Source: Cryphonectria parasitica EP155
Taxonomy: Eukaryota; Ascomycota; Sordariomycetes; Diaporthales; Cryphonectriaceae
DNA length: 37,746 nt
Assembly: GCF_011745365.1 (NCBI RefSeq)
Contig: NW_024468922.1
Coordinates: 1 to 37,746, forward strand
Reading direction: 5' to 3'
The notes below the pieces were generated by a model. The model did no database searches, was not told the origin of the DNA, and saw only the letters and a list, made by a program, of their open reading frames with translations. Within the stretch, counting starts at the first letter, position 1, and each line of letters begins with the position of its first letter. Of this stretch, positions 4,384 to 34,649 are shown piece after piece. Position numbers and translations under genes: made by a program.

Positions 4384-4459
4384 TTTTAATAATTCTTATT
4401 TAAGAATAATTCAGTATTACTCTCTTAAGCAATACAGAATATAATAGCTTCTTAGAAAA

Positions 4460-10450: not shown

Positions 10451-10828
10451 CATCTTCTCAGACTATATTCATTTCTATTAATATAAATAGAAAAGCTTAG
10501 TTTTTCTCTTTTCAATTTCATTTTCCAATTTTCAATATTAGATAGCAATATTGCAAAGCTTCTCAGAGAAGGGACTTATAATGTTGCATTTGGAGCAATC
10601 TAGGCGAATATATTCAATATAGCAAGAAGAGTTTCTGGAAAACATCTTGCAGAATTTGAAACTGCGCTTCTTATAATAGGAATAGATGAGCATTTTAACA
10701 AAGTTCTTCAAGAAGCGGGAAATCAGAAGATTTCGATCTTGAATACTTTTTGAAACAGAGAAAGATCTGCGAATACAGGATTTATTGATTCTATTCGATA
10801 TCTCAATCAGGAAAGCAAGATTATACAT
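10181..10828 (-). pseudogene. G1 antisense ORF: Cys-rich, coiled-coil protein
   Basis: Reading opposite to gag-pol, next to the 3' LTR, this region is homologous to the antisense ORFs of G-B (18938-19564) and G-C (28215-28832). The N-terminal part (10828-10538) keeps Cys residues of the paired C-x2-C-x7-C motif in diverged form (...RLDCSKCN...). The C-terminal part (10453-10250) has an Ala/Glu-rich helix (EAEKAEAERMHIAAKVQAVV) and the acidic tail FESFDW. The homologous stop is the TAA at 10183-10181. The N-terminus is more diverged than in the other copies, so the start is approximate. It overlaps the C-terminal pol frame tail-to-tail. Function unknown; a nucleic-acid-binding or regulatory role is only a guess from the Cys pairs. 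Confidence 0.6.
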
Positions 10829-10893
10829 ATGGAGAACTTGCTAGAATACTTATAGAAGATTATTGAGAATAATAATTAATAGAAAAGAAATAA

Positions 10894-11313
10894 TATTATA
10901 ATTCATTTAATATACAGATTACAGAATAAAGCTCTACTAACTAAGAAACTAGATATTATAATTTAATATTGAATACTAAGCAGGATTATATAATCCGGAT
11001 TAGAGTTGCTAGCGCAACTATATTAATTATGAATATAATTAATATATTTGGAGAAATAACTATGAGAGATCGGAATATAGTTAGGATAGTTAGAATTGAA
11101 GAGCTGAATATATAAGAATCTGTTCATTATTATTAGATAGATTCAGTATATAGCTCTTCAGTTATCAATCTAAGTATTCAGTCTTATACACTGAGTAGCT
11201 TCAAAGGCAGTGAACACTTGCATCGCTTATTAGGACTTATATGATTCCGTATTCAAGGACTTGATACTTTGATACCGCTCTTGTTAGCATAAACCCTTCG
11301 TGTACTCATTACA
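10894..11313 (+). repeat. G1 3' LTR (420 bp, 27-bp deletion)
   Basis: Starts TATTATAATTC and ends TCATTACA. It matches the 5' LTR but lacks 27 bp between two GTAC/ATAC copies near its end (about 11303). A purine tract AGAAAAGAAATAA precedes it; the G-C copy shows AGAAGGAAGATGA at the same place, the likely polypurine tract. The 3' target duplication ATGAT follows at 11314-11318. Confidence 0.88.
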
Positions 11314-11467
11314 ATGATAGATAAAGGAAATAAAAGAGCTCAGCAGGGAAAAAAAAATGCGCTCGTTTATAGAGTAAACTTGCTGCTCTTACTGATCCTT
11401 ACAAACTATAATACAAACAGCTCTAAGCTACCAGCCTGAATAGCTAAGTTTATACTCACTGCATCAT
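11314..11467 (-). other. Element X leader between G1 and the X 5' terminal repeat
   Basis: About 150 bp of X internal sequence that was adjacent to 3936 before G1 inserted. It holds no ORF. On the minus strand it directly follows the terminal repeat (after ...TGATTCA), where a primer binding site would lie (ATGATGCAGTGAG...). I cannot match this to a tRNA. An A9 run with a purine-rich stretch lies at about 11323-11358. Confidence 0.5.
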
Positions 11468-11783
11468 TGAATCAGAAATGAGCTGTTGCTCTCGAAAGAA
11501 AAAGAAATAAACAGCTGCTGAAGCAATGAGCAAGAACTTGTGCAACTCAAGCATGCTTGTACAAATGAGGACAGCAAACTAAGGCTACACGAGCGTAAGA
11601 ACAGAGTGAAAGATCTGTCTTAGACCTGTTCAAAGAGTTTAAAATTGAAAAGAAGAGAAAGGATGCTTTTTTTTTGCTTATAGCTAAAGAATTTGAAAAG
11701 TGAGTAGTATTCTTTATATGTATGAGAACTCTTAACTCACTGTACTCCACGTTCCACGAACTACTACTCTGGCTATTACAACA
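11468..11783 (-). repeat. Element X 5' terminal repeat (316 bp)
   Basis: On the minus strand it starts TGTTGTAATAGCC and ends CTGATTCA, so TG...CA. It matches 31247-32025 once the solo G LTR there is removed (316 and 318 bp). It contains a TATA-like ATATAAAGAAT at about 11715. It is followed on the plus strand by CTAG and then G pol sequence. Its GC content is higher than its neighbours. It is the empty-site version of the solo-LTR insertion point (TCTTA at 11730-11734). Confidence 0.75.
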
Positions 11784-13060
11784 CTAGAGCTATAAATCAC
11801 TATACTTCTTGCAATCTATCTTGCAATTTCTTAATAAGTAGTAATAAATATCAGTTCTTAATTATAATATTATTAAATTGCTTATAATCAATATATAGTC
11901 TGAGCTTGCTATTCTTCTTAAGTATAAATAGAATAGGATATTCTGCTAATAATTATAATAATTATATATATTCCTTTTTAAGATTCTTATTAAAATACTT
12001 CTTAAGCGTTTCTAGTTATATCTTATCTAGTCTATAGATAGGAAAGAATTTAAGCTATTTTCCTTCTTATAGCAGGATCTCGTGATTATATAAGCTGTAT
12101 TCTGATAATTCTGTATTCAATTCTTCTTGGAATAATTTCTTAAATTTGTAATATTCTCATAATATACTTGCAAGTATTGGTTCTGATTCATGTACTGTTT
12201 CTGCTATCTGGAGGAATAGTAGGTACTGTTAAGCATGCTTCTTTTTATTCTTTGTTTCTGATAGCGTTTTTGAGAGCTTTAAGCGTTCGCTCCGGGCTGA
12301 ACCGACTGCTTGAGAGCTTGGTTTCGAGGTTTTTCTCGTGTGAACTTACAATTCACATTCTGAAGCCTTTCCTTGTTGCTCCGGAGCGGATCGATTTGCT
12401 GAGAATCTCGCTTCTGTTGTTTTGCTAACCTATTAGCGCTCTGATACTGTTTGAATCCGCTTGTTACTAGGTTCTTCTCCTTGAACTGCTAGCTCTGCTA
12501 GCTTGAAGATATATATGAAGTTATTTAAAGCCTTTTTTCCCGAGTATTCTTTAATAACTAACTTTCATCCTGCATTATTAATTGCAACTATCTCTCTGAA
12601 TATAGCTTGTTTTCATAAGATTTAGCCAGTAGTTTAATCAATTCGAGGATTATGCTTCTTAAGCTATGAAAGCTTTATAATCAGCTCATATTGTGCTATA
12701 TTTGTAGTATTAAAGGAAACTCTGATTACATATTCTTAAATTAAGATAAGTAGATGATTAGTTTTCTTATTAATTACTTCTTAGTTGTATGCAATAGATT
12801 ATTCTTCTATAGTGCTGAGAGTATATAGCTGCTTCTTCCATTTCCATTGTAGTTATGCTTGATTGATAATATATAGAAATATAAAATTTCTCTAAGTATT
12901 ACTATTTAATAGTGCGCTATACTTATATTCTTAAATGTATATATTAAGCTTGATATGAGCATAGTTTGCTTTAAAAGCTTTATATAAGAACTGTTTCAGT
13001 CTAATCATCTGCAGTTCTCTTACAAGCAATTCTAGCTTTTTGAAGTTATTAAGAACTGTT
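11784..13060 (-). pseudogene. pol: G-A pol fragment: protease to RT N-terminus
   Basis: Minus-strand pol in the -1 frame relative to the gag tail. The protease motif reads A-L-L-N-S-N near 12915-12900, so D-S-G is lost. The GC-richer protease-RT linker follows (12480-12160), then the beginning of RT up to the conserved L-D-L-K segment, where X interrupts. The plus-strand ORF at 12168-12428 is a shadow. RIP stops are present throughout. Confidence 0.75.
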
Positions 13061-15100
13061 TGTTCTTCTTCTAAGCTTGCTTTGCTGCTTCTTAAGTAAG
13101 CTTTTTAGCTTGCTTTTGCTCATATTATTATTATTCCTAATCTTTCTTCTATTAATGCTAGTTGCAAACTTTATTATTAATATGAATCATATAAAGCATT
13201 ATTCTGCATTGCTACTATTCTATTTTCTTGTTTATATATTGCTTGAAGCAGTTATTTAGTAGCTCAATGTATGCATTATTATACTGTTTGTTAAGAATTT
13301 CTCTGAAGTAAAGTTCTTGCTTTTTAATAGCTTGAAGGATTTGTTCTAATTCTTTAATAAGGAACTATTCATGCTGTACTTTTTCCAAGAAATGCATTCT
13401 GCAGCTGTAATAAGCACAGGAGATTCATGCTAGCTTATAGTATAGATTATAAAGTAAGCTAATTCGAGGATTCTTGCTTTGCTATGCTTCGATGCTCTGT
13501 AAGAAAATGTAAATAAAGAGCTCTTCTAGCTCTATTCTATAAACAAGATATTCAATTCATATTATCTTCTTATTCCATTCAATGCTGAAGGGAAATCTTT
13601 CTTTTCGAACTTCTGTAGAGCTGTTAGGTTTGTTGTTTACGGAAGATTCTAATGAATTGCTAAGTCGTTTGCTCTAGCTGAATTCTTCTGTTGTCTGAGA
13701 GATATTTTCAGTATCATTTAGATATTTGTATTAATAGCTAAAAGAATATCATTTCTTATTCATATTCCTAATTATAATACTTGATATAGATAATAAGGAA
13801 TAATAAAGAGTATTATTACTAAGTTCTTTCTTCAATGCTTGAATACTTTGTTTAATAATATTAGAGCAGTTCGAGTTGTTGCTGCTCATAATTATGCTAA
13901 GCATATACTCTCGCCCTTCTATCGCTATCTATCTATAATGCTTAGATCTCTAAGAGAATCATTCTGAGCTTTTCTTATTTGAGAGATATATTAAGCAGTT
14001 ATTATTATAGCAGAATATTCAGCTGAGATTTCTATAATCAACAGAGTCCGATACTTGCTTCAAGAGAATGTTTTTGCTTAGTTAATTGAGTTTCTATTGC
14101 TAAGCAATATTCATCTAGCATTCTTTCTAAACTGATTGCTATTTATTCTTTCTAAATTAATAGCAATTGTATAATATGTATTTCTGTTTATTGCAGTTAT
14201 AGCAAGTAATACTGTTTCTTTTGCTATATTGCTTATTAGTAGCATCGAATTTCATAAAATCAGCATGCATAGTACTGCTTTAAGCTGTACTGCTATATTG
14301 ATTGCTATTTTTATATTGAAATTTCTTGCTTATATTAGCTAGAAATCTCTAAATCTAGCTTTTTTCTTTTCTAGATTTTTCTATTTATTATTCATATAAA
14401 TAGTTATTAATGCAAATTATTTAGTTAGAGAATATTGCAAAGTTTTCTAATTAATTCTGCTTAAAGATTTCATTCTTAATATTATTCTTAAATTTCTTAT
14501 AATAATATTTTATAAGATTCTTATCTTTCTATAGAAATTATACTGAGAATTACTTAAATCTGATTATATAAGCAGAAGCTAACTTAGTTTGCTTAAGATT
14601 TATAAGCTGCTAAGCTGTAATATATTCCTTATTAGAATTGCTAAAGATTTCTTTAAAAGCTTTTTCAAAGCTTGCAAAAAAATCAAATATATTCTTAGTA
14701 TTCTAAGTATATACATTGAGATTATTCTAATACTCTAAGTAATTGCATAGAGAAAGCTTATATTAGATAAGAGCATTCTATTCGAAATGAGTTTCTGCAA
14801 GAATAATTTTCTTAGATTCCTTAGTAAACTGAATTATATAATACAAAAAGTATGCTTTATAGTAAGTAAGAAACTTATATAATATTTTCTAATTGCTATT
14901 ATATATAGCAAGCTTGTTCATCTTATATGCTTTTCTAGCATTGCTAATAATTATAAAAATAAACTGCATTTACTAAGCTTAATAAGCTAGCTAAGCTTGC
15001 TAATTAGTAATAATAGCGCTTTAAGCTTGCTATTAATTGCGCAGATTCTGAATATACTGAATAAGCTAGTATATCTGATTAATTAGTTCTTTCTGAGTAG
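13050..15100 (-). pseudogene. gag: G-A gag, degraded
   Basis: Homologue of G1 gag on the minus strand. The CCHC knuckle lies at about 14214-14173 and the Lys/Ala/Gln-rich tail near 13110-13060. The knuckle and tail are out of frame with each other, so this copy has an indel between them. The tail-to-protease step is -1, as in G1 and G-B. The hydrophobic plus-strand ORF at 13077-13259 is its antisense shadow. Confidence 0.75.
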
Positions 15101-15197
15101 AGATACACAAGAACGAAGAGATTTCTTAAGAAGCTATTATATTCTGTATTGCTCAAGAAAATAATACTGAATTATTCTTAAATAAGAGTTATCAAAA

Positions 15198-15643
15198 TAT
15201 AATAAGTACTGCAGTAATCCGAAGATTCCAAAGTATACAAAGAGTTTATACTAATAAGAGCAGTGCTAAGTACAAGCCTTGAATACGGAAATATAACTGA
15301 GTAATTGTATAAGTATTCACTGCTTTTGAAGCTATCAGAGTAGAGAATAATCTGATACTTAGATTAATAACTGAAGAGCTATATACTAAATCTATCTAAT
15401 GATAATGAATGTATGATTATATATTTAGCTCTTTAATATAAATTGCGGGAATCGCTAGCAAGCTTAGCGATTCAAGATATAAGATTCGCTGGGATTAGTA
15501 GCAAGTTCAGCGATCCTCCCTCCTTTACAATCCTAACCCTGAGTTATATAATCCATGTTTTTGTCAGAACATTGAGTTCTTAACATCTAGTTCTTGTTAC
15601 TCGTGACCTGTTTCGTGACTTGCATATTGAATGAGTCATAACA
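15198..15643 (-). repeat. G-A 5' LTR (446 bp, U3 type II)
   Basis: Runs from TATAATAAG to ATAACA on the plus strand. The U3 contains two units of an about 43-bp repeat whose core is a palindrome-like GGATCGCT...AGCGATCC. The same two-unit U3 occurs in the G-C LTR, also 446 bp. The next five bases are TTAGA. Confidence 0.88.
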
Positions 15644-15728
15644 TTAGATTTCTCCAATCCAATATTCTCGAAATGTATAGGAATCTCAACAGTTCTCATA
15701 CTTGCATCTCCTTCAACTTCATTATTAG
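15644..15728 (-). pseudogene. Scrap of older element X copy
   Basis: Begins with TTAGA and matches 1250-1334. It keeps more GC than the younger copy, and the minus frame reads SSNNEVEGDASMRTVEIP, the clearest peptide from the X large ORF. It is the right flank of the G-A/G-C insertion; the left flank is 25828-27676. Homology ends close to the start of element Y. The ORF 15580-15828 (minus) is a chance fusion through this piece. Confidence 0.65.
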
Positions 15729-15732
15729 AGCT

Positions 15733-16129
15733 TGTATGCGCACAAAGGAAATAAGTGGCTCTTGCGACCCCTGGTAGCAGTTCAGAGCTGCTGCAAGAGC
15801 TTCGCTCCGAAGCAGCGCTCTCGTACAATACCGCATAGCTATCAAGCTATTGTCATCTCATTTAGTTCAGACCAATTGTGTATATAAGGGAAAGGGGAAT
15901 AACAGATTCAGCAGCGAAAAAGAGGAGAAGGGAAATAGGTTCAGTAGTCTCTTTGAATGGAAGTATCAACAGAGCAGCTTGGGAGCAGCTTATATCCCTT
16001 TATCTCACTTGTGTGCTCTTTTTACTCTGATAAGTCTGAACTTTTTATTCTTTCCCGGGAAGTAAGCTGTTAGAAGTGAGAATAGCTTCAGTTATATGAA
16101 GCAGTAGCGCTGCTTCAGAGCGATAATCA
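15733..16129 (+). repeat. Putative 5' LTR of element Y
   Basis: Bounded by TGTATGCGCAC and GATAATCA (TG...CA, 397 bp), ending 8 bp before a TGG-starting primer-site candidate. It contains TATATAAGGG at about 15876, suitable as a promoter. GC content is well above that of the surroundings. No second copy lies in the window to confirm the ends. The ORF 15850-16065 lies inside it and is probably not coding. Confidence 0.4.
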
Positions 16130-16249
16130 TAATGAGCTGGCGATTCCGATCTCTTATAGACTCTAAGCTAACTTTCTTCTTAAATCCTTTCTTCAAGCTC
16201 AAATTCAGATCCAGCTTACAAGAATCTCTTGCTCAAAGCATCAGCAGAT

Positions 16250-18351
16250 ATAGCTAGATTACAATGCTAGGAATACGAGCTTGATTATCAGTTAAAAGAA
16301 GAAGAGATATAGCAGCAGCTGAGAAGCAAGCGCGCTCGCTTAATACTACTCCAGAGCAGCAATATCAGCTCGGAGCTTCAGCCAGCTAGCTTCAGCCCTT
16401 TCAGCACCCCTCCTGTGCCAATCTCTTCAGAAGCACTCTCAACAGCGCTTGCACAGCTATATTGCAGCTTGCTAGCTCTTATATATAAGAGAGGATTATA
16501 TATAGAGTTAAAAATATTTCTATACAATCTGCAATACTATTTCAATATCTGCTACTTAATTAATAAAGCGGATAAGATGAAATATGCAGTATACTGCTTG
16601 AAAAATGATTCCAAGCAGAACTAGATCAACTATATTGCTTGCTAGAAGAAGGAACAGCATAAGCTTATTCTTATTATCTTTAAAGAACTTAAGTTCTTTC
16701 TAAAGAACTAGTTAGCTAATTCTATCATCTGCACTATTACTGCTGCAGCAATGCTTGCAAGCATTGCTTAAGATAAGAGCGAATTAGTAATAAGCTTTAT
16801 ATGCTAGTATTAGAAAGCGAAGCTTGAATTTCATTATTCTAATACCGAGCAATACTGCATAATAGCTATTCTTATATACTTTAAATTAGAGATTTGTATT
16901 GCTATCAGTATACAGATAATGCTCTTAAGCAGCTGAAATGCTCTGATTAGCTTAGCATGATATATCGAATTTGCTTAAGAGATGATTATTAATTCTTAAT
17001 CTGCTATCAAAATGCTTCTAAGCAGCAGCTCAGAAATTACTACTTCCTCATATTGTAGCTGTTATAGCTGTAGCAAGCTAGGCTATATAGCAAGGGACTG
17101 CATAGCTTTGCATAGTTCTTAAGCACTTCTTCTTATGAGCACTCAAGCTTTGTTAATACATTCTCAGACAGTTAATAACAACTTTGCTCGCTATTACAAC
17201 TATCAGAAGATAAGCTATTTTGCTAATCTATATTCGAAGCTTTAACGGAATATCTGTTACACTTGCAATAAGCTAAGCTACTATAGTTTCAGTTGCTTAG
17301 AAGCAGAATGTTAGATTTGCAGGAAGAAGAAGCATACAGCAAACAGCTGCAAGCAGGCTAACAAGGTGGCAACAGCTACGCAACAGAGCTGAGGAAACGC
17401 TGAGCAGAAGCTTTGCCAGCTTACCATTCATGCAAGGCTGTTGCTTGGAAACAAAAGGAAGCATACGTATAGATTGGTTAACTTGAGAGCAGAGAAGAAT
17501 CTGATTAATTGCTGCTTAGTTAAAGCTCTAGTGCAGAACTAATCTTTTAAAGCATTCTTCAAGCTTATCTCAATTAATTAGAAAGCTATTATTATATATA
17601 GCAGCTGCTCTATCGATATAAAAATTATAGATAGCTTAGAAACATTCAGAAAGCAGTGCTATCGCTTTATAGTAGCAGATATTAGCTAGCTCAGCTTGAT
17701 TCTGAAGTTTCTGTAGCTTGAGATCGTTAATCCAGTAATACAATAGAATATGAAGCAATGAAGATTTCCCCTCCAGCGCTCCCAGATTCAGCTCTGCATT
17801 ATGGCGAAAGGGCTTGAGAAAGCAAGGATTGCCTTTGCAGCATATTACTACCCAAGCTCACCAGACCTACTCCTCAAAGCTGAGCTAGAAAATGCAGCGC
17901 TAGAGCTGCACCTGCTCCCTGAGTACTGCAACTTTGTTAATCTATGCATGAAGAAGACATCAAAATCGCTCGCACCTCATACTAATATCGACTATTGTAT
18001 CGAGCTCGAAGAGGAAGCAAAACTGCTTTGAAAGCTCTTGTACGCTTTCTCTACAGCTAAACTAGAAATACTCAGGAAATATTTGGAGAAAATGCTAGCT
18101 AGAAGATGGATTCGACTCTCAACTAGCTCTGCTAGCGCATTTATACTATTTGTGCTAAAGAAAGAAAGCGAGCTGCGCTTCTGCATGAACTATAGAATGC
18201 TGAATCGGATTATATACAAGAACTGCACCTCATTGCCTTTGATTGCTGAGATTCTTAATTAACTAAGCTATATACAAATCTATATCAAGCTCGATCTTAA
18301 GAATGCATACTATTAGCTCTGAATCTATAAAGAAGATGAGTAGAAGACTGC
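16250..18351 (+). pseudogene. gag-pol: Element Y gag-pol (3 CCHC knuckles, protease, RT)
   Basis: A single reading frame (shared by all motifs below) runs from a Ser/Pro-rich region near 16380 to 18351, broken only by TAG/TAA/TGA. Three zinc knuckles occur at 17060-17101 (C-x2-C-x4-Y-x4-C, His lost), 17255-17296 (His lost) and 17309-17350 (C-x2-C-x4-H-x4-C, with a stop in place of the residue after the first Cys). The protease site at 17480-17488 reads N-L-R where D-S-G is expected: three transitions. A 77-codon open stretch (17801-18031) and another (18038-18262) carry the RT N-terminus, including R-F-C-M-N-Y-R, L-P-L-I-A-E-I-L and L-D-L-K-N-A-Y. Gag and pol appear fused in one frame, unlike G. 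It is truncated before the YxDD box by the G-B LTR. Confidence 0.8.
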
Positions 18352-18846
18352 TGTAATGAGCACTGCAGCAATCTGAGAATTCCTAAGTATACAAGAAGAT
18401 TTATGCTAACAAGAGCGGTATCAAAGTATTAAGTTCTTGAATACAGAATCATACAAGTCTTAATAAGCAATGCAAGTGTTTACTGCCTTTGAAGCTACTC
18501 AGTATATGAGACTGAATACTTAGATTGATAACTGAAGAGCTATATACTGAATCTATCTAGTAGTAATGAATGTGTTCTTATATATTCAGCTCTTCAGTAT
18601 AGCTTGTCGGGATTGTTAGCAAGCTCAGCAATCCTAAGTGTGAAGCTTGTTGGGATTGTTAGCAAGCCTAGCAATCCTAAATATAAAGCTTATCAGGATC
18701 ATTAGCAAGCTTAGCAATTCTCTCTTCTTTACAACCCTAATCCTGAATTATATAATTAATGCTTTATTAGAATATTAAGTTTCTAATATTTAGTTCTTAT
18801 TACTTGTAATTTATTTTGTAATCTGTATACTGAATAAGTTATAATA
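18352..18846 (-). repeat. G-B 3' LTR (495 bp, three-unit U3)
   Basis: Starts TGTAATGAG and ends GTTATAATA on the plus strand. It is about 49 bp longer than the 446-bp LTRs because of an extra copy of the 43-bp U3 repeat. It interrupts element Y RT. Confidence 0.85.
18602..18722. repeat. 43-bp tandem repeat in G-B LTR U3
   Basis: Three units begin at 18602, 18645 and 18688, each starting GCTTGT or GCTTAT. Each has a palindrome-like core GGATTGTTAGCAAG...AGCAATCC. G-A and G-C LTRs have two units. Expansion and contraction inside U3, near the promoter, could change promoter strength. Confidence 0.75.
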
Positions 18847-18937
18847 TTATCTTCTTTCTATTAGTTATTATTCTCAACAATCTTTTATAAGTATTCTAGC
18901 AAGTTTCTATATTCATGATCTTATCTTCCTAATCAAG

Positions 18938-19564
18938 ATGTTGAATAGAATTAACAAAGTTGCGAAACCGAAATCTTCGAATTCTCGTTCTGATAAAAAA
19001 AAACAGAAAAGCTTTCTTCTTTAGTTTATTCTCTCAAACAGTTTCAATATACATCCCTGTTCTTATTGCAATAATTAGAGTTTGCAATCATATATCGTTT
19101 CTTCTTATAATTCATTCTGTTGCTCGGAGTGCATTTCCTAGAATCGCGCTAAGTGCAACGTTCTGAAATTAACGAATGCTGCTGAACTTTTTCTTACTTC
19201 TACTCAATATCGAAAGCTGAAGAATGAGATAGAAGAGTTGGAGTTAAAATTGCTTCAACTGCATTAACAAAAGAAGATATAGCGCGAAAGGATGTTTCGA
19301 GCTATTCGTTGAAGCTTTACGAATCTTGAAAAGCTTGAGAGAGAGAAAGCTGAGGAAGCTGAAGCTGAGAGGGCGCATATTGCTGCTGAAGTGCAGGCTG
19401 TAGTAACTAAGGAATCTGCTGTTACAGCTGAGGATTTCTCTTTTGAGAGTTTTGATTGAAATTCTGTAAACTTGGGGAATTCTATAATTGACTGGTTAAG
19501 CTTTCTGGAGAATAAGGCTTCCGAGGCTTCTGAGTTTCGGTTTAGGGCGGAGCAACTGTTCTAA
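18938..19564 (+). pseudogene. G-B antisense ORF, paired C-x2-C-x7-C protein
   Basis: 209 codons including the stop, in one unbroken frame length from ATG (18938) to TAA (19564), interrupted only by RIP-type stops. It lies antisense to gag-pol, 91 bp inside the 3' LTR. Features in order: a Lys/Ser-rich basic N-terminus (KVAKPKSSNSRSDKKKQK); C-S-Y-C followed by seven residues and Tyr (third Cys lost); C-S-E-C-I-S then C at the right spacing; a coiled coil rich in Glu/Leu/Lys; an Ala/Glu-rich helix; and an acidic C-terminus with FESFD. G-C encodes the same protein, 206 codons including the stop. Similar Cys pairs occur in uncharacterised repeat-associated fungal proteins as I recall them. Function unknown. 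The ORF at 18960-19166 is a shadow frame. Confidence 0.65.
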
Positions 19565-22500
19565 GTGCTGGTTTCTTTCCTTTTCCAATACTCAGCTATT
19601 CTTTTCTAAGCATTTTCAACATTCTTCTATAGTTCTTATGAGTTTTCGCTTGCTGAGTATTCTTTTCACTTGATAAGATATTCTCTTATAATGTTTATAC
19701 TTCTATACTTAAGAATTTTCTCTATCTTGTATTCTAACTCATTGTTTTTCACTTCTGCTGTATTATCTATTAATGCTTTCTATACTGCTAGTTCCAGCAA
19801 TAAGATGTGGAAAACCGGATATATTCTTATCCTATAAGATAATGCTAATTCGTAGTTAACTGGGAAGATCTGTTATAAGATTTTGAATGATTCCAATTTC
19901 TTATAATCGAGTTTGTTGCTAGATCTGATTATTTTGATATTTTTCTAAAGTAGATAGATTTTATCTCTTTTCTATAGAATTGATTTCTTAATTCTTTTGG
20001 AGTTTGCATATTGTACTATTTGTTTCTGAATGAATTGTAATTCTGATTGGAGTTCTTTCTGAACTTTCTTAATCTTCTTAATTCTTTTATTTGCAGCTTC
20101 TATATCTGCTTTTAATAATACTTTATAGTAAGCTATTAGATTATATTTATAGAGTATAAAGAATAGCAATTTCTTTGTTATGCTTATATTTATGCTATTA
20201 TAAGCGAATTATGTAAGAAGCAATAGATTAATTTAGTTATTCTGTTTCTAATTAATATAGTATTGAAAGTATTATTCAATAATCTGATTTATTCTTTTTA
20301 TTTATTTATCTGTTTGTAAATAAAATGCTATAGATATTTTGTAGTATATTCTAAGTTGTTTTATAAGCAAAGTTCAAAACTTTGAATTAAACTTTCTATT
20401 TCTATTAGAGATTACTTCTTCTAGCATGCTATAGTTTGCAATAATCATTCTAAGGAATATATATATAAGTTTTTCTGCTATATTGCTCTTCTTATAAGAA
20501 AAAAAGTAAGTATACTTGCTTAATTTGCAAACTATTACTAGAATGCTATTATATTATATCTTAATTAAGAGTTTTTATAAGAAAGATAACTTAATAATAA
20601 AGTTTAGATTAATAAATTGCTAAATAATTATAAATACTAATAAGAGATATAATAGTTTGTAAAGCTTATATTTTTTTGTTTTATTCTTTTTGCAGCTATT
20701 GCATTATTATAAAATGTTTTCAATTCTTTTTCTAAAGCTTAATAGATTCTAGTATCTTTTAATGCATTTATAGATTGCTCTAATTCTCTAATATTCATAT
20801 GCTAATATACTATATACATTCTTGATATAGTTATTTTATTTATCTAGAATTATTAATTCTGAATTCTTTTCTGAAGATTTAATTCTGAAAGCAGCATTTA
20901 GCTCTTTATATGCATTAATAAGATTTTCTAACTTTTTTGAGCAAAGATATTTTATATATTCAAGAAATCTGTACTTCAATAATCTGATTTTCTGCTAAGA
21001 GCGTCTGCTTATTTATTCTCTAAGCTTTTGCAATGTACAATCTTGAAATTAAACTGTAAGAGGAATTCTGCTTATCTAACTTATTACTTATTCAAAACTT
21101 TAGTTGTTATAAATATGATTAGATTCTTATAATCTGAGTGAACTATGATCGGATGCTATATGCTAATGAGATAGTATTGCTATTCCTCGAAAGCTTTTAC
21201 TATTGCTATGAGCTTCTGATTAGGGATTTTATAGTTGATTTCTGAGCTATTTAACTTCTTTGAAAAGTTGCTTATAATTCTTAAATGCTCTTAATTATCT
21301 TGCTAATCAAGTTGTTCTCCGAATGCATATTCTAATGCATTGATTTCAATTTTAAAAGATTTGTAGAGATTCGCTTTATACAAAATTAGCTCTAAAGTAA
21401 TATGCTTAATAATCTTATTAAAAGCTTCTTATGCTTTGGAGATTTATTTAAAGAATTAATTCTTTTTGATAAGATTTGTAAGAAAGTATGCGATTCAGCT
21501 ATAGTTTCTAATGAACTGCTTATAGAAGTTAATATATTCGAGAAAAGATCTAATATTTCTAATATTCTTAGAAATTAGCTAGTTTCTAATAGCTTTTATT
21601 TTATCTTTCTATAGCTTAATATATTCTAGCTTAATTGTAAATTCGAAATAGTTAATCTTTTGTATATAAAAGTAACTTTTAGCAGATTTTATAAGAAGTT
21701 TTGCATCTTAAAGCATTTGCAATACTATTTCTATATATTTTTTATATTCTTTTAATATTTAAAAGAAAATAAGAATATTATTGAGATATGCAATAATAAA
21801 CTAATTCAGATGTTTATATAAAATATAATTAATTATTTCTTAAAATGAAGCTGGAATATTTGTTAAACTGAAGAGCATAATCAAATATTCGTAGTATTTG
21901 TAGCGTATTCTGAAAGCAGTTTTCCATTCCTCTTCTTCTTTTATTCTAATCAGATTATAAGCTTCTTTCAGATCTAGAACTATAAACTACTATACTTCTT
22001 GTAATCTATCTTGTAATTTCTTAATAAGTAGCAACAAATATTAGTTATTAATTATAATATTATTAAGTTACTTGTAATTAATATATAGCTTAAGCTTACT
22101 ATTTTTCTTAAATATAAATAGAATAAGATATTCTGCTAATAATTGTAATAATTATATATATTCTTTCTTAAGATTTTTATTAAGATATTCTCTGAATGCT
22201 TCTAATCATGCTATATCTAGTATATAGATAAAGAAGAACTTAAGCTATTTTTCTTCTTGTAGTAGGATCTTGTAATTATATGAATTGTATTCTAACAATT
22301 CTGTATTCAATTCTTTCTGAAATAGTTTCTTAAACTTGTAATATTCTCGTAGTATATTTGCAAGTATTAGTTTTAATTTATTCGCTGTTTCTGCTATCTG
22401 AAGGAACAGTAGGTACTGTTGAGCGTGCTTCTTTTTGTTCGTTGTTTTTAGTAATATTTTTGAGAGCTTTGAGTATTCGCTCTGAGCTGAACTGAGCGCT

Positions 22501-23250
22501 TGAGAGCTTAGTTTCGAGGTTTTTCCTGTGTAGATTTACAATTCACATTCTAAAGCTTTTTCTTATTGCTCCGGAGCGAACTAACTTGCTAAGAGTTTCG
22601 CTTCTGTTATTTTGCTAATCTATTAGTACTCTAGCACTATTTGGGTTCGCTTGCTACTAGATTCTTCTTCTTGAGCTGCTAGTCTTGCTAGTTTGAAAGT
22701 ATGTATAAAGTTGTTTAAAGCTTTTTTTCTCAAGTGCTCTTCAATAACTAACTTCAATCCTGTGCTATTAATTGCAACTATCTCCCTGAGTATAGCTTGT
22801 TCTTATGAGATCTGGCTAATAATCTAATCGATTCAAGAATTGTACTTCTTAAGCTATAAAAGTTTCATAATCAGCTTATACTATACTATATTCATGATAT
22901 CAAAAGAAGCTCTGATTATACATTCTTAGATTAAGATAAGTAGATAATTAGTTTTTTTATTGATTACTTCTTAATTATATGCAATAGATTATTCTTTTAT
23001 AATACTGAGAGTATATGAGCATTTCTTCTATCTCTATTATAATTGTGCTTAATTAATAATATGTGAGAATATGAAGTTTCTCTGAGTGCTACTGTTCAAT
23101 AGTGCGCTGTACTTATATTCTTAAATATATATACTGAACTTAATATAAGCATAGTTTGCTCTAATAGCTTTATATAAGAATCATTCTAGTCTGATCATCT
23201 GCAGTTTCTTTACAAGCGATTCTATTCTTTTGAATTTATTGAGAACTGCT
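19560..23250 (-). pseudogene. pol: G-B pol: protease to chromodomain
   Basis: Minus-strand homologue of G1 pol. The protease site reads A-L-L-N-S-S near 23105-23088, RT Y-L-N-N near 21790, and integrase N-F and S-N-R-N where Asp residues are expected. The integrase C-terminal segment is open at 20169-19972. A degraded chromodomain at about 19740-19575 ends beside the antisense ORF stop. The N-terminal pol segment (about 23240-23130) reads coherently in the -1 frame: L-V-K-K-L-Q-M-I-R-L-E, then a stop at a likely Trp. Confidence 0.82.
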
Positions 23251-25310
23251 TATCCTTCTGAGCTTGCTTCGCTGCTTCCTGAGCAAGCTTCTTAGCTTGC
23301 TTTTGCTTATATTATCATTATTTCTAATCTTTCCTCTGTTAATGCCAGTTGCGAATCTTATCATTGATATGAATTGTATAGAGCGCTATCTTGTACTGCT
23401 ATTATTCTATTTTCTTATTTATACATTGCATGGAATAGTTGTTTAGTAGTTCAATATATGCATTATAGTACTGCTTATTGAGAACTTTCCTGAAGCAGAA
23501 TTCCTATTCTTCAACAGCTTGAAGAATTTGCTCTAGTTCTCTGATAGGGAATTATTCGTATTGCATCTTATCTGAGAAATGCGTTTTGCAGCTATAATAA
23601 ATGCATAAGATCTATGCTAGTTTATAGTATAGATTATAGAGTAAGCTGATTCAGGAATTCTTGTTTTGTTGCATCTCGATGTTTTGCAAGGGAATGTAGA
23701 TGAAGAGCTTCTCTAGCTCTATTTCATAGACAAGATACTCAATTCATGTTATTTCCTTATTCCATCCAATGCTGAAGGGAAATCTTCCCGTAAGCTTCTT
23801 GAGTTTATTGGAAAATTTTGATGAATCGCTAGATCATTCATCCTAGCTTAATTCTTCTATCATCTGAGAAGCATTCTCAGTGTTGTTCAGATACTTATAC
23901 CAGTAGCTAAGAGGATATTACTTCTTATTCATATCCTTCGTTATAGTGCTCAGCATAAGCAATAAGAAATGATGAAGAGTACTGTTGCTAAGTCCTTCCT
24001 TCAACGCTTGAATGCTGCATTCTGTAATATTGAAGCAGTTCGAGTTGCTACTACTCGTAGTTATACTGAGTATATATACTCGCTCTGCTATTGCTATCTG
24101 CCTGCAGCGCTTAAGTTTCTGAGAAAACTATTCTGAACCTTTCTTACTCGAGAGATATATTAAGCAGTTGTTATTATAGCAGAATATTCAGCTAAGACTT
24201 CTGTAATTAATAAAGTTTGATACTTGCTTCAAGGGAATATTTTTGCTTAGTTGATTAGATTTCTGTTAGCAGGCAACATTTATTTAGCATTCTTTCTGAA
24301 TAGATTGCTATTTATTTTTCCGAGATTGATAGCAGTTGTATGCTATATATTTCTGTTTGTTGCAATTATAGCAAATAATATTATTCCTCTTGCTATACTG
24401 CTTGTTAGCTGCATTGAGTTTCATGAAATTAGCATGCATAGTGCTGCTCTAAGCTATACTGCTATATTGATTACTATTCTTATTTTGGAGTTTCTTGCTT
24501 ATATTAGCTGGAAATTTCTAAGTTTAGCTTTCTCTCTTCTTGAATTTCTTTATCTATTATTTATATAGATAATTATTAATGCGGATAGCTTAGTTGGAGA
24601 ATGTTGCAAAATTCTCTAGCTAATTCTGCTTAGAGATTTCATTCTTAATATTATTCTTAAGTTCCTTATAATAGTGCTTTATAAGATTCTTATTTTTCTA
24701 CGAAAATTTTGCTAAGAGCTGCTTGAATCTAACTATATAAGCTAAAGCTGATTTAGTTTGTTTGAGATTCATAAGTTGCTAAGCTATAATACATTCTTTA
24801 TTAAAATTACTAAAGATTTCCTTAAGAACTTTCTCGAAGCTTTTAAAAGAATTGAATATAATCTTGATATTCTGAATATGCATGTTGAGATTGTTCTAAT
24901 ACTTCAAGTGATTATATAGAAAAGGCTTATATTAGATAAGAGCATTCTTTTCGAAACGAGTTTCTGCAAGAATAACTTTCTCAAACTTCTTGGTAAACTA
25001 AGCCTTATGATACAGGAAATACGCTCTGCAGTGAATAAGGAATTCATGCAGTGTTTTCTGATTGCTATTATATATAGCGAGCTTGTTCATCTTGTATGCT
25101 TTTCCAGCGCTACTGGTAATTGCAGAGATGAACTGCATCTGCTGAGCCTGCTGAGCTAGCTGAGCTTGTTAGTTAGCGATAATAGCGCTCTGAGCCTGCT
25201 GTTATTTGCGCAGATTCTGAATATGCTGAATAAGCTGATATATCTGATTGATTAGTTCTTTCTGAGTAGGAGCGTGCAAGGATGAAGAGATTTCTGAAAA
25301 AGCTATTGTA
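23230..25310 (-). pseudogene. gag: G-B gag, degraded
   Basis: The least mutated gag of the three. The N-terminal region (about 25300-25100) is Gln/Ala-rich with heptad-like QQAQ runs and continues through M-Q-F-I-S-A-I into M-N-K-L-A-I-Y. The CCHC knuckle at 24373-24332 has Tyr for His. The Lys/Ala/Gln tail ends near 23240. The plus-strand hydrophobic ORFs 23264-23446 and 24251-24568 are its shadows. Confidence 0.78.
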
Positions 25311-25365
25311 TTCCGTATTGCTTAAGAGATAATACTAAATTGTTCTTGAATAAGAATTATTAAAA

Positions 25366-25827
25366 TGTAATAAGCATTGCAGCAATTCGAAGATTTCTAA
25401 GTATACAAAGAGGTTTATGCTAATAAGAGCAGTATTAAAGTATTAAGTTCTTAATATGGAACTATACAAGTTCTGATAAGTAATGCAAGTATTCACTGCT
25501 TTTGAAGCTACTTAGTATAGAAGACTGAATACTTAGATTAACAACTGAAGAGCTATGTACTGGGTTTATCTAATAGTAATGGATGTGTTCTTATATATAT
25601 ATTCAGCTCTTCAGTATGAACTGTAAGAGTCAGCGGCGACAGCCGCGGTTCAAGATTACATCGACGGAACCGCTAGCGGTCCCCACAGTTCATCCCTGCC
25701 TGGTAGAACCTATAACCCTAACCCTTGGTTACGTAATCCTCGTTGGTTATCCGATGTTGAATCATGACACCTGGTTCTTGTTGCTTGTGACTTGTTTCGT
25801 AACCTGCATGTTGAATGAGTTATAACA
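25366..25827 (-). repeat. G-B 5' LTR (462 bp, GC-rich U3 type)
   Basis: Starts TGTAATAAG and ends TTATAACA on the plus strand. The stretch 25616-25830 is largely free of RIP and contains short inverted repeats (GCGGCGACAGCCGC, ACCGCTAGCGGT) where the other LTRs carry the 43-bp repeat. It also contains CCCTAACCC. The ORF 25583-25825 is not considered coding. Confidence 0.85.
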
Positions 25828-27676
25828 AGTATAAAGATATTCTTAAAGCTATACTTATTATACTTTTAAGTATTATTAATCAGATATAAGCTATTATTCT
25901 TTTTAATAATAAGAAACTAGTTATTTCTATATAATATATAGCTTTTCTTAATAATCTTTCGCTTAATATATTATTTCAGAAGCTTTATTAACTTTAGCTT
26001 GAAAGTATTAAAGATTGGAATATATCTTGCTTGAAAGATCTTATAAAATATAATTCTGATTTCTTGCAAGAAAGCTACTTTCTTAATAATCTTTCCAATT
26101 TCAGTAAAGTTTCATGCAAAAGCTTTGATTCTGTTTCTCAATATATATTTGAATATTTCCTTCTTAGCTTCAGAAAACTTTTTACAGTTTTTTTCTTATA
26201 TAGCAGCTTACTGCTTAGATCTTAAGCGCTAATCAGAATTCAGATTGCTGAACTTAGATTCAATCTACTTATTATACTTAGTAAGCTTTATAAATTGCTA
26301 AGCTTATCTTATTTTTTCAATCTTAGCAAGCTTTCACTTGATTATTTCTTTTAATACTAAATCATTAGATTAGAAATTATTAATTAGCTTAACTTTCTTA
26401 TTTTTAAGCTTATAAAAAGTATTAATTAAGCTTAAAATATCTTTTCTTTTCTTTCTTATATAATATAGCTAGCATAAATAGCGCTAGCTGCTATGCATTT
26501 TATACAAACAAGATCTTCAGATCGCTCCTTTCTCATTTATTATAAAGCAACTCTTCTTCAACTTCCTTCTTATTAGTTCTACTATTAACCCATTCATAAC
26601 AGCTGCAATATCTCATTCAGATATAAATATCATAGCTATATTTCCTTTCTTCAACAATACTCACTCTGGAATAATTTCTCTGCTAACAGCTCTACATTTC
26701 TCAGAGTAGCTGCTAATACTCAGTTTTTTAGTATAATTCTGTATAAACTCTTCTCTTCAAGAAGTTTCTAACTGCTAATTATAGTAATCAGTTATACTTC
26801 TTCAAAAGCGAAGCTTGTATAAAGAAATCCGAAAATAGAATAATTAAAGAAAAGCTTAGTTTGTATTACAAATAGCATTTCTAATAATATAGAATGATTT
26901 AGCAATATTAATCTATTATTAATAATATAGAATATTACTTATTTAGAAAAGCTATTATAGAAAATATTAGTTTTAAAAACTCTAATAAGCACTATATTTA
27001 ATCTATTATATATATATAAGATAATATTCGATATTAGCATATAAGATAAGTATATACTTAAATATAAAGAGAGAGCTACTAAGCTCATTTCAGCATCTGT
27101 ATTCAGCATTACTTATACAGATTTATTCTCTTTATCTTTCAGCTGCAAAAGAATATATACTACTGAAGCAATGCTTCTATCTCGAATACTGCTAAGAGCA
27201 GTTATAAAAGTTATTATAGAAGGAAATAAGAATTTGTTAAAAGCTCGAATCATATTAATAGTAAGCTTAATATAGCTAGATTCAGCAATAAGAAATAAAG
27301 CTTAAACTGCAGATAGTTAAGCTAGTTTCGAAAGATATTTAGTAATATTCCAAGTATTAATAATCTAATTATTAATAAGCTCTTCAGATTGGGAAAGCAT
27401 CGAGATTTCGAGTTTATACTGCAATGAATTAGCTGATTTAGCAATATCTGCCTTGTACAGATCCAAGCTAGTTTGATTATCGAGATTAATAACTTTTCAA
27501 GCTTCAGAGCTAACTTCTTGAAAACTATAAATCAGATAAGCTTTCCATTCTAGTAATATAACTATTATCTCCTAGCCTGAAATCTTTAACAGATAATTTA
27601 GAAACTGATTCAGAAGCTTGTTATTAATAGCTTGAACTGTTAGCTTTCTATTCAAACTGTTGAATTGCTTATTAGA
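25828..27676 (-). pseudogene. Older element X copy, internal fragment
   Basis: 26423-27676 aligns base for base, without a net gap, to 1-1254 of the younger X; differences are almost all transitions. 25828-26422 therefore shows X sequence that lies upstream (plus strand) of window position 1. The minus frame of the X large ORF continues through most of it with RIP stops (for example a segment S-I-R-D-R-S-I-A-S-V-V-Y near 27190-27150). The left end was cut by a G insertion (now the right flank of G-B), the right end by G-C at TTAGA. The plus ORF 26031-26225 is of doubtful meaning. Confidence 0.7.
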
Positions 27677-28122
27677 TGTAATAAGCATTGCAGTAATCCG
27701 AAGATTCCAAAGTACACAAAGAGTTTATGCTAACAAGAGCGGTGCTAAGTATAAGCTTTGAATACGGAAATACAACTGAGTAACTATGCAAGTATTTACT
27801 GCCTTTAGAGCTATCAGAGTAGAGAATAATCTGATACTTAGATTAATAACTAAAGAGCTATGTACTGAATCTATCTAATGGTAATGAATGTATGATTATA
27901 TATTCAGCTCTTTAGTATGAATTGCGGGGATTGCTAGCGAGCTTAGCGATTCAAGATGTAAAGCTTGCTGAAATCAGTAGCAAGTTCAGCAATTCTCTCT
28001 TCTTTACAATTCTAATTCTGAGTTATATAATTCATATTTTTATTAGAATGTTGAGTTCTTAATATCTAGTTCTTGTTACTTATAATCTGTTTCGTAATCT
28101 GCATATTGAATGAGTTATAACA
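27677..28122 (-). repeat. G-C 3' LTR (446 bp, U3 type II)
   Basis: Same length and same two-unit U3 as the G-A LTR at 15198-15643, supporting that they are the two LTRs of one insertion. It starts TGTAATAAG and ends GTTATAACA. Confidence 0.88.
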
Positions 28123-28214
28123 TCATCTTCCTTCTATTAGTCATTATTCTCAATAATTCTCTGTAAGTATTCTAATAAGTTTTCTGTATATATAATCTTG
28201 CCTTTCTAATTGAA

Positions 28215-28832
28215 ATGAATAATAAAGTTGCGAAACTGAAATCCTCGAATTCTCATTCTAATAAAAAGAAGCAGAAAAGCTTTCTTCTTCAGTCTATTCT
28301 TTCAAATAGTCTCGATATGCATTCCTGTTTCTATTGCAATGATTAGAGTTTGAAGTTGTATATTATTTCTTCTTATGATTTGTTTCATTATTCAGAGTAT
28401 ATTTCTTAGAATCGCGCTAAGTATAATGTTCTGAAACTAATAAATGCTACTAAACTTCTTCTTATTTCTACTCAATACTAAAAACTGAAAGATGAGATAG
28501 AAGAGTTAGAGCTAAAGTTAACTAGATTGCATTAATAAAAGAAGATATAGCATGAAAGAATATTTCGAGCTATCTGCTGAGATTTTAAGAATCTTGAAGA
28601 GCTTAAGAAGAAGAAGGCTGAGAAGGCTGAAGCTGAGAGAGTGTGTATTGCTGCTGAAGTGCAGGCTGTAGTAGCTGAGGAATCTGCTATTATAGCTAAG
28701 GATTCTTCTTTTGAGGATTTTGATTGAAATTCTGTAAACTTAGGGAATTCTGTAATAGACTGGTTGGGTTTTCTGGAGAGTGAGATTTCTGAAGCTTCTG
28801 AGTTTCAGTTTGGGATGAAGCAACTGTTCTAA
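28215..28832 (+). pseudogene. G-C antisense ORF, paired Cys-motif protein
   Basis: 206 codons including the stop, from ATG 28215 to TAA 28832, in one frame, with RIP-type stops only. The layout is the same as the G-B protein: basic N-terminus; C-F-Y-C plus seven residues and Tyr; a second motif now Y-S-E-Y with Tyr at the last position, so several Cys are lost by G-to-A; coiled coil; Ala/Glu helix; acidic C-terminus FEDFD. Conservation of frame and length between G-B and G-C (208 and 205 residues) argues it was a real gene before RIP. Confidence 0.65.
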
Positions 28833-31246
28833 GTGCTGGTTTTTTTCCTTTTTCAATACTCAGCTACTTTTTCCTAAGCATTTTTAATGTTTTTCTATAA
28901 TTCCTACGAATTTTCGCTTGCTAAATAATCTTTTCATTTAATAAGATATTCTCTTATACTGTTTATGCTTCTGTATTTAAGAATCTTCTCTATTTTATAC
29001 TCTGATTCATTATTTTTCACTTCTGCTATATTATTCATTAGTATTTCTTATACTGCTAGTTTCAGTAATAAGATATGAAAAACTGAATATATTCTTATTC
29101 TATAGAATAATACTAGCTTATAATTAATTGGGAAAATCTGTTATAAGATCTTGAATAGTTCTAACTTCTTATAATTAAGCTTGCTGCTAGATCTTATTAT
29201 TTTAATGTTTTTTCAAAGTAGATAAATCTTATTTCTCTTCTATAGGATTAGTTTCTTAATTCTTTTGGAGTTTGCATACTATATTATTTATTTCTAAATG
29301 AATTATAATTTTAACTGGAATTTCTTCTAAATTTTCTTAATCTTCTTAATTCTTTTATTTGCAGCTTTTATATTTGCTTTTAGCAGTATTTTGTAATAAG
29401 CTATTAAGTTATATCTATAGAATATAAAGAATAGTAATTTCTTTATTATACTTATATCTGCACTATTATAAGTAAACTATATAAAGAATAATAAATTAAT
29501 TTAATTATTCTATTTCTAATTAATATAATATTGAAGATATTATTCAATAATTTAATTTATTTTTTCTATCTATTTATCTGTTTATAAATAAAATACTATA
29601 AATATTCTGTAATATATTTTAAGCTGTTTTATTAGCGAAGTTTAAAATTTTGAGTTAAACTTTCTATTTCTATTAGAGATTATTTCTTCTAGCATATTAT
29701 AATTAGTAATAATTATTCTGAGAAATATATATATAAGTTCTTCTACTATACTGCTTTTCTTATAAGAAAGAAAATAAGTATACTTGCTTAGTTTGCAAAT
29801 TATTATTAAAATGCTATTATATTATATTTTAGTTAAAAGTTCTTATAAGAGAAATAGCTTAATAATAAAGTTTAAACTAATGGATTGCTAAATAGTTATA
29901 AGTATTAGTAAGAAATATAATAGTTTATAAAGCTTATATTTTTCTGCTTTATTCTTCTTACAGCTATTGCATTATTATAAAATGTTCTTAATTCTTTTCT
30001 TAAAGCTTAATAAATTCTAGTATTTCCTAATGCATTTATAGATTATTCTAACTCTCTGATATTCATATGCTAATACGCTGTATATATTCTTAATATAGTT
30101 GTTTTATTTGTTTGAAATTATTAATTCTAAATCCTTTTCTGAAGATTCAATTCTGAAAGTAGTATTCAGCTTTTTATATGCATTAACAAGATTCTCTAAT
30201 TTATCTTAAGCAAAGATATTCTATATATCTAAGAAATCTATATTTCGATAGTTTAGTCTTCTGTTAAGAGCATCTGCTTATTCATTTTCTAAGCTCTTGT
30301 AATATATAATCTTGAAATTAAATTGTAAGAGGAATTCTGCTTATTTAATTTATTGCTTATTCAAAACTTTGATTTTTATAAATATAATTAGATTCTTATA
30401 ATTCAAGTAAACTATAATCGAGTATTGTATGCTAATGAAATAATATTGCTATTCCTTGAAAGCTTTCATTATTACTATAAGCTTCTAATTTAGAATTTTA
30501 TAGTTAACTTCTAAGCTGCTTAATTTTCTTGAAAAGTTGCTTATAATTCTTAAATACTTTTAATTATTTTGCTAATTAAGTTATTCTCCAAGTATATATT
30601 CCGATGCATTAGTTTCAATTTTAAAAGGTTTATAGAAATTTGCTTTATGCAGAATTAGCTCTAAGATAATATGCTTGATAATCTTATTGAAAGCTTGTTA
30701 TACTTTGGAAGTTTATTTGAAAAGCTGCTTCTTTTTAATAAGATTTATAAGAGAATATGCAATCTGATTATAGTTCTTAATGAACTGCTTATAAAAGTTA
30801 ATATATTTGAGAAAAGATCTAATATTTCTAATATTCTTGAGAATTAGCTAGTTTCTAATAGCTTTTATCTTATCTTTCTATAGCTTAATATATCCTAGTT
30901 CGATTGTAAATTCAAAGTAGTTAATTTTTTGTATATAAAAGTAATTCTTTACAGATTTTATAAGAAGTTTCGCATCTTGAAGCATTTGCAATACTGTTTT
31001 CATGTATTTCTTATATTTCTTCAGTATTCAAGAGTAAATAAGAATATTATCAAGATATGCTATAACAAACTAATTCAAGTACTTGTATAGAATATAATTA
31101 ATCATTTCTTAGAATAAAGCTGAGATATTTGTTAAACTAAAGAGTATAATCAAATATTCATAGTATTCGTAGCATATTCTGAAAGCAGTTTTCTATTCTT
31201 CTTCTTTCTTTATTCTAATCAGATTATAAGCTTCTTTTAGATCTAG
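28830..31246 (-). pseudogene. pol: G-C pol fragment: RT core to chromodomain
   Basis: Minus-strand continuation of pol from just after L-D-L-K in RT. The catalytic box at about 31060 reads Y-L-D-N, intermediate between functional Y-L-D-D and the Y-L-N-N of G1 and G-B. Integrase shows N-F and S-N-R-N at the Asp positions. A chromodomain remnant lies at about 29000-28850. The 5' remainder of this pol is at 11784-13060. Confidence 0.8.
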
Positions 31247-32025
31247 TGAACCAGAACTAGGGCGCCGTCGCCCTCGAAAGAAAAAGGAATAAACAGCTGC
31301 CGAAGCAATAAGCAAGAGCTTGTGCAACTCAAGCATGCTTGTACAGATGAGAACAGCAAACTAAGGCTATACAAGCGCAAGAACAGAGTGAAAAACCTGT
31401 TTTAAATCTGTTCAAAGGGTTTAAAATTGAAAAGAAGAGAAAGAATGCTTTTTCTTTGCTTATAGCTAAAGAATTTAAAAAGTGAATAATATTCTTTATA
31501 TGTATGAAAACTCTTGTATTATGACTCATTCAACATACAGGTCGCGAAACAGGTCACGAGTAACAAGGACTAGGTATTAGGAACTCAACGTTCTAACAAA
31601 GCATTGATTACATAACCCAGGGTTAGGGTTATGAGCAGGATTAATCAGAAAGAATAGCTCTGAATAAGTGCTATTCAAAGCTAGCAGAATAACTTGAATA
31701 TGTTACTATTCAACATATTCATACTGAAGAGCTGAATATATAAGAACACGTTTATTACCATTAGATAGATTTAGTGCATAGCTCTTCAGTTATTAATCTA
31801 AGTATCAGATTACTCTTGTACTCTAATAGCTTCAAAAGCAGTAAACACTTGCATCACTCATCAAAACTTATACAGTTCCGTATTAAAGACTTAACATTTT
31901 GATACCACTCTTGTTAGCATAAACCCCTTCGTATACTTAGAAATCTTCGGATTGCTGCAGTACTCATTATATCTTGATTCACTATACTCTATATCCTACG
32001 AACTACTACCCTAGTTACTACAACA
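31247..32025 (-). repeat. Element X 3' terminal repeat, with solo LTR inside
   Basis: Starts TGAACCAGAAC and ends TACTACAACA on the plus strand. Without the 461-bp solo LTR plus duplication it is 318 bp, matching 11468-11783. It is preceded by CTAG (31243-31246). Read in reverse, the next inner bases (32045-32026) are purine-rich, GCTAAGGAAGAAC, a candidate polypurine tract that defines this as the 3' end. Confidence 0.75.
31517..31972 (+). repeat. Solo LTR of family G (456 bp), TSD TCTTG
   Basis: A single G LTR from TATTATGACTC to CATTATA with no internal region, flanked by TCTTG at 31512-31516 and 31973-31977. The paralogous empty site is seen in the X 5' terminal repeat at 11730-11734. 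Its U3 is a fourth variant, with AATAGCTCTGAATAAGTGCTATTC and GGGTTAGGGTT. Solo LTRs arise by recombination between the two LTRs of one element. Confidence 0.92.
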
Positions 32026-32099
32026 GTTCTTCCTTAGCAACTTTCTTCCAAAGTTGCAATAAGTTCAATGATATGCTAGATCTAATTAGAGAGAGATGA

Positions 32100-33950: not shown

Positions 33951-33959
33951 TTAAAAGAA

Positions 33960-34450: not shown

Positions 34451-34649
34451 TATTTAATAACCTCTTTCTTAGTTTACCTTGCTTTTCAATTTATTCTTCA
34501 TATAATAACTTCTTCTTCTATCAATCTTTCCTTATTCAGCTCTGCAATATACTCAAGATATCTCGAATTATTACTAATGCTGTTTTCTCTTTATAAATAA
34601 ACACTGCTCTTCAAGAGATTAATAAGATCTAAATCTAATTTTCTTCTTT

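Follow-up and report, generated by a model that had tools for sequence, protein, structure and literature searches.

The stretch of DNA analyzed here (the window) is the entire unplaced contig NW_024468922.1 of Cryphonectria parasitica EP155, 37,746 bp in length and referred to below as C14, from a genome assembly totaling 43.8 Mb in 17 contigs. C14 is AT rich (GC content of 19 to 39% per kb) and, according to a repeat finder, is composed largely of nested repeats. Three elements are of concern. G is about 7.4 to 7.5 kb long, with long terminal repeats (LTRs) of 446 to 493 bp where measured. X, an LTR element, is about 12.3 kb long, has LTRs of 319 bp, begins with TGAACC and ends with AACA; a full copy at C2:807120-819433 serves as the reference for X positions. 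Y is a third element, probably another LTR element, whose first 304 to 310 bp recur elsewhere. We describe a G insertion whose halves stand in swapped order in C14, a second copy of the same block on C2, and a hybrid G element. We consider it likely that a nested-retrotransposon block of about 39.6 kb was duplicated in tandem, head to tail, with C14 in the middle; the duplication would have arisen by unequal crossing-over between two G elements, G1 and G2, and would then have been altered by repeat-induced point mutation (RIP).

C14 contains parts of two X insertions. The older one (old X) received a G insertion with the target duplication TTAGA; this G was later split by the younger X (new X) at CTAG, and its right half (G-A, or G-R) precedes its left half (G-C, or G-L) in C14. 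The repeat finder reported inverted-repeat arms that both halves share with G-B, another G nested in new X: 28617-31242 in G-C corresponds to 7771-10396 in G-B, and 11786-12268 in G-A corresponds to 7286-7768. Since the end of G-C adjoins the start of G-A when both are measured on G-B, the two are complementary parts of one G. TTAGA is present outside both outer ends, before G-C and after G-A, and an empty TTAGA site is found in new X at position 1250 of the window. Old X continues after G-A, where 15643-15710 matches positions 9119 to 9186 of the full X, and the match to Y begins at 15727. New X has TGAACC at 31247 and AACA at 11783, with CTAG on either side; an empty CTAG site is present in G-D, the hybrid element described below, near 21970. 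A sequence-only reading of the window had proposed that G-C and G-A are halves of one insertion in the wrong order, and the G-B arms, TTAGA and CTAG bear this out. It had also given both LTRs as 446 bp, as confirmed by a gapless alignment in which they differ by 58 transitions and no transversions. The ends of C14 fall at X6044 and X7871, leaving 1,826 bp of X absent between them, in agreement with the earlier remark that the sequence matching 25828-26422 is missing from new X. Because X copies share the tip TGAACCAGAACTAG, we suspected that the left end of new X was misplaced by 14 bp; this was ruled out, and the border at 31246/31247 stands.

Each of the seven nested borders of C14 that we searched for genome-wide (the best 40 candidates were scored in each border or flank search) has one full-length second copy, and all seven copies are within the 744- to 784-kb interval of C2, on its minus strand. 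The identities range from 92 to 98%: 98% for the border at 31246, 92% for those at 11783, 27676 and 18351, 93% for 15643, and 95% for 25827 and 11313. Seven borders that each recur at full length within one block rule out chance. The search for second copies of the two G/X junctions, at 11783 and 31246, had been suggested from the sequence alone; among the 40 candidates scored, it gave one full-length second copy of each. In a BLAST comparison with C2, window positions 793-18567 matched C2:762067-744253 (17.8 kb, 94.9% identity, one gap opening), and 19345-37535 matched C2:790259-772068 (18.2 kb, 93.7%, five gap openings). The C2 block is inverted relative to the window and has the normal order: left part of G, left part of new X, a run of Ns, right part of new X, and right part of G. 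New X presumably continues across the N run. On C2, G-R follows the right part of new X, and the left part of new X follows G-L; the contrary arrangement considered beforehand, in which a different X insertion precedes G-A, was not seen. This second copy in normal order, together with a unit of about 39.6 kb, supports the earlier proposal that the whole block was duplicated (or is circular) in a unit exceeding the window. That proposal did not include the probable cause (crossing-over between G1 and G2, with a switch inside G-D), the RIP divergence or the gap in C2. Outside the block, C2:680001-729400 and C2:791300-850000 gave no window match of at least 300 bp above 88.4%. A third match over the Y/G border (window 18202-18501) was found at C11:895201-895508, with 83% identity and near full length; this is either an older copy of the same Y/G insertion or a second insertion nearby.

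The two BLAST stretches meet in G-D, which links the end of one C2 block stretch to the start of the other, where C2 has separate G1 and G2 elements. G1 occupies C2:744468-744253 and 736757-729454 and is interrupted by a later G; G2 occupies C2:791198-783776. Both are on the minus strand and flank the block in direct orientation. We compared G-D with each at informative sites in contiguous stretches. Left of position 21,200, G-D shares the state of G1 at 490 of 600 sites; to the right, it shares that of G2 at 671 of 852. Sites at which G1 and G2 differ by a transversion, a change that RIP does not make, are unanimous: 122 to 0 for G1 on the left and 41 to 0 for G2 on the right. Seven of the left sites (7 to 0) lie in 19345-21199, where G2 is clearly alignable. 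A single switch accounts for 908 of the 1,165 informative sites from 19345 onward, as compared with a maximum of 762 in 5,000 shuffles. Among the 40 matches scored for each, the best non-self match of the left kb of G-D is G1 (93%; next, 87%; G2, 86%); for the right kb it is G2 at 93%, with the runner-up at 84% and G1 missing from the list. The flanks of G-D are likewise unlike each other: ACTGC on the left is the target site of G1, whose duplications on C2 (ATTGC/ACTGC) are alike up to one transition, and AGTAT on the right is the right flank of G2. One clean switch, combined with the flanks of two parents, makes G-D the product expected from unequal crossing-over between G elements in direct repeat. 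G2 itself lies near X position 71 on its left and at X7276 on its right, and its first 0.9 kb departs from G-D, as if an earlier recombination between two G insertions in old X had deleted the X sequence between them and given rise to G2.

The differences between C14 and C2 carry the mark of RIP, a process that depends on the sexual cycle and on a RID-type methyltransferase. An alignment of three stretches, which omits 149 bp around the switch, gave 1,924 transitions and 6 transversions between the two copies in 36,594 sites; control comparisons of paralogous G copies gave 45 transversions per 4,291 sites and 44 per 5,741. Apart from one base at a stretch edge, the gap between the copies is a 40-bp segment absent from C14 at 1363, which the full X, judged by its length, possesses. 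This almost exclusively transitional divergence implies that, as far as ordinary mutation goes, the copies are young, and that RIP has altered them. The T/A state is found on C2 at 984 of the differing sites and on C14 at 940, so that both copies were hit, if C to T is the direction of change. The C-to-T rate depends on the next base, being 0.196 for CpC, 0.158 for CpA, 0.128 for CpG and 0.048 for CpT; a Neurospora-type preference for CpA, for which the C14-C2 changes were tested, was not observed. In Neurospora and Podospora, as stated in part of one report, RIP mostly targets CpA, and RIP differs between fungi (PMC10787394). Common to these systems is the almost exclusive change of C:G to T:A in both copies of a duplicated stretch; here, in contrast, CpC, CpA and CpG are favored and CpT is spared. 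RIP acts between mating and meiosis, according to a passage of another report (PMC2621366). The G inserted in the LTR of G1 (C2:736758-744258; target duplication CTAGT) most likely postdates the duplication, since it is present on C2 and lacking in the C14 copy; its LTR stretches (453 bp) are 94.5% alike, with 25 transitions and no transversions.

The N run on C2 (C2:762068-772067) is exactly 10,000 bases long, lies inside new X, and is presumably an assembly gap. On C2 the new X pieces end at X5833 and about X8663, and on C14 they end at X6044 and X7871; all four ends fall within about 2.8 kb of X. The length of the unit can be calculated from either copy if the unseen part of new X is assumed to have no further insertion. 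From C14, it is 37,746 plus 1,826, or 39,572 bp; from C2, it is about 39,613 bp, obtained from the 54,290 bp between the crossover points by subtracting the 10,000 Ns and the later G (about 7,506 bp) and adding the missing X (about 2,829 bp). The 40-bp C14 deletion covers nearly all of the 41-bp discrepancy. The first 792 bp of C14, which extend beyond the C2 gap edge, have a best other match of 88%, and the last 400 bp have a best match of 87% among the 40 listed; 189 of these bases do pair with C2 at the other gap edge, in a match too short for listing. Such low matches are as expected if the partner of these stretches lies in the C2 gap. Judging from the sequences, C14 most likely fills the N run as the tandem duplicate, so that, of the two copies of new X, the outer halves would be on C2 and the inner ones on C14.

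These observations can be accommodated in an order of events (features are listed in Table 1). Old X would have received G at TTAGA, new X would have entered that G at CTAG, and G-B would have entered new X at ATGAT; Y would have been inserted into or beside old X, and G1 into Y at ACTGC, before G1 and G2 recombined. This order is read from the nesting and covers steps within a branch before the crossover. The starting arrangement, on the minus strand of C2, would have been G2, old X, G-L, new X, G-R, end of old X, Y, and G1. Misaligned pairing of two partners (presumably chromatids or homologues) and unequal crossing-over between G1 of the first and G2 of the second would then yield G2, unit 1, hybrid G, unit 2, and G1. 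The left end of C14 would lie in new X of unit 1 and its right end in new X of unit 2, with G-R, Y, the hybrid G-D, old X and G-L in between; C14 would span the joint between the two units, and the right half of the split G would therefore come before the left half. Following the crossover, both copies would have acquired C-to-T (G-to-A) changes through RIP, a G would have entered the G1 LTR on C2 only, and C14 would have lost 40 bp of X. Finally, the assembler would have broken inside new X of both units, producing the 10,000-N gap in C2 and leaving C14 unplaced.

Table 1. Features of C14 (positions in the window)
Feature	Position	Strand	Remarks
Right part of new X (X 7871-12314), interrupted by G-B	1..11783	+	Ends AACA, then CTAG target duplication; from 793 colinear with C2:762067 downward
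G-B, G nested in new X	3937..11313	-	Target duplication ATGAT; second copy of 11313 border at C2:751415-751614, 95%, 200/201 bases
G-A (= G-R), right part of split G	11784..15643	+	CTAG at start; LTR 15198-15643; then TTAGA
Old X resuming after G insertion	15644..15726	+	Full-X match up to 15710; Y border near 15727
Y, carrying G-D (G1 on C2) at ACTGC	15727..18351	+	From C2 alignment
G-D, hybrid G, recombination joint	18352..25827	+	Flanked by ACTGC on the left (like G1) and by AGTAT on the right (like G2)
Crossover interval	20990..21330	.	From the last transversion-type site specific to G1 to the first specific to G2; a single breakpoint fits best at 21169-21210
Old X fragment (X 7276 to about 9124)	25828..27676	+	From alignment to C2 and full X
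G-C (= G-L), left part of split G	27677..31246	+	Preceded by TTAGA; LTR 27677-28122; ends CTAG
Left part of new X (X 1-6044)	31247..37746	+	Starts TGAACC
Solo G LTR, inverted, inside left LTR of new X	31517..31972 (edges approximate)	-	G LTR also at that place on C2, about 777625-778086

The coding content of these elements was examined with Pfam. Among seven stop-free pieces, one gave a match above the cut-off, a chromodomain (PF00385; E value, 7e-15), in a piece from C2:727000-729460; four of the other six had no family at an E value of 0.1, and two had sub-cut-off families only. Two of the pieces, from Y, gave no Pfam match. The segment C2:727000-729460 contains the start of a further G copy, and the PF00385 match is on the strand opposite to the G orientation used here. 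By sequence similarity, this suggests that G is a chromodomain-bearing element of the Gypsy type that would be read on that opposite strand.

Several points weigh against a tandem duplication generated by G1-G2 crossing-over. Most of the left transversion-type sites in G-D (115 of 122) come from 18568-19344, a stretch in which G2 belongs to a different subtype; they favor G1 and do not place the switch. Wrong-way sites are found on either side of the switch, 181 of 852 on the right and 110 of 600 on the left; all are of the transition type, and we attribute them to later RIP. At 20 sites, G-D agrees with neither G1 nor G2. The flanks of G2, CAAGG on the left and AGTAT on the right, differ, and G2 is not a clean insertion. 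The putative linkage of C14 to C2 itself comes from sequence comparison, and the ends of C14 lie in multi-copy X, which leaves room for a dispersed position. The N run could be something other than an assembly gap, although its exact length and its place inside X speak against that.

A dispersed position is the strongest of the alternatives, yet we regard it as improbable. C14 would then be a second copy of the same G1-G2 product at another place in the genome, such as might arise if a circle reinserted into a different X or G through homology. Any X could receive such a molecule, both ends of C14 are in X, and at least 39 other places were listed in each end search. However, one more step would be required, and the break of C2 inside new X, in the 2.8-kb interval that also contains the ends of C14, would go unexplained.

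Somewhat less probable is an artifact of assembly, in which C14 would derive from a second copy or haplotype in normal order whose pieces were misjoined in a G, making the G-D joint a chimera. The joint does lie inside a repeat, G is abundant, C14 is unplaced, and two RIP-altered haplotypes would also differ by transitions only. On the other hand, G1 and G2 are only 79 to 87% alike in 200-bp steps from 20000 to 22599 and would form a poor bridge for a misjoin, and G-D switches once and cleanly. Moreover, C14 differs from C2 by 5 to 6% and hence is not misread C2, so that a second copy of the block would still be required. A chimeric join within the window is therefore unlikely.

Similarly doubtful is the proposal that C14 represents an extrachromosomal circle of about 39.6 kb, formed by G1-G2 recombination on one chromatid and opened by the assembler. 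A circle would give the same order and the same hybrid G. Its ends would be expected to meet, but those of C14 neither overlap nor abut, with X6044 and X7871 being 1,826 bp apart. The 1,924 transitions are spread over both copies, and both thus appear to have undergone RIP, whereas a circle without a centromere would hardly last through the sexual cycle. The N run in C2 would also be left unexplained. The evidence favors, without proving, a chromosomal tandem duplication over a circle. Fainter still is the prospect that C14 is persistent circular or otherwise separate retrotransposon DNA, carried through sexual cycles beside its chromosomal source and RIP-mutated with it.

Two independent X insertions into two G copies at the same favored site, with no duplication, would account for both X borders in G lying at CTAG, but this has a negligible chance of being correct, given that, of the genome matches scored, none outside C14 and C2 contains the full G/X borders, that five more nested borders are common to both, and that 36.6 kb differ almost exclusively by transitions. 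Site-specific insertion of X into G, which we had considered separately, is likewise disfavored by the shared nested borders.

A tandem duplication by unequal crossing-over is an event of a known, ordinary kind; its value here is in the completeness with which it can be read. The case shows retrotransposon-driven chromosome growth under RIP, and a single assembly suffices to recognize the parents and the hybrid joint, to reconstruct much of the course of events and to see the later mutation of both copies. Where RIP obscures everything else, a duplication can still be followed through transversions, and small unplaced AT-rich contigs may be tandem copies missing from chromosome gaps. The general view of how such genomes evolve is unchanged.

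Unequal crossing-over between dispersed retroelements is known from yeast Ty elements and from Drosophila, and direct repeats paired out of register yield a tandem duplication with a hybrid joint. The present case differs in that the product is deduced from one assembly and was subject to later RIP. In Colletotrichum higginsianum, part of one report describes segmental duplications bounded by repeats, of which four of six are near chromosome ends beside subtelomeric repeats, and proposes recombination on that basis (PMC5576322). What the two cases have in common, as far as that part of the report goes, is that chromosome blocks were duplicated and have repeats at their borders with enough homology for recombination (PMC5576322); the C14 block differs in consisting of nested retrotransposons and in that the hybrid element and the switch point are visible. 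For crapaud of Podospora anserina, a passage in another report gives 7 of 150 full copies with disparate 5' and 3' ends, ascribed to gene conversion or ectopic recombination (PMC10787394). Both that account, in the portion cited, and ours concern recombinant LTR copies under RIP (PMC10787394), but in C. parasitica both parents of the recombinant, as well as the large rearrangement that resulted, can be named.

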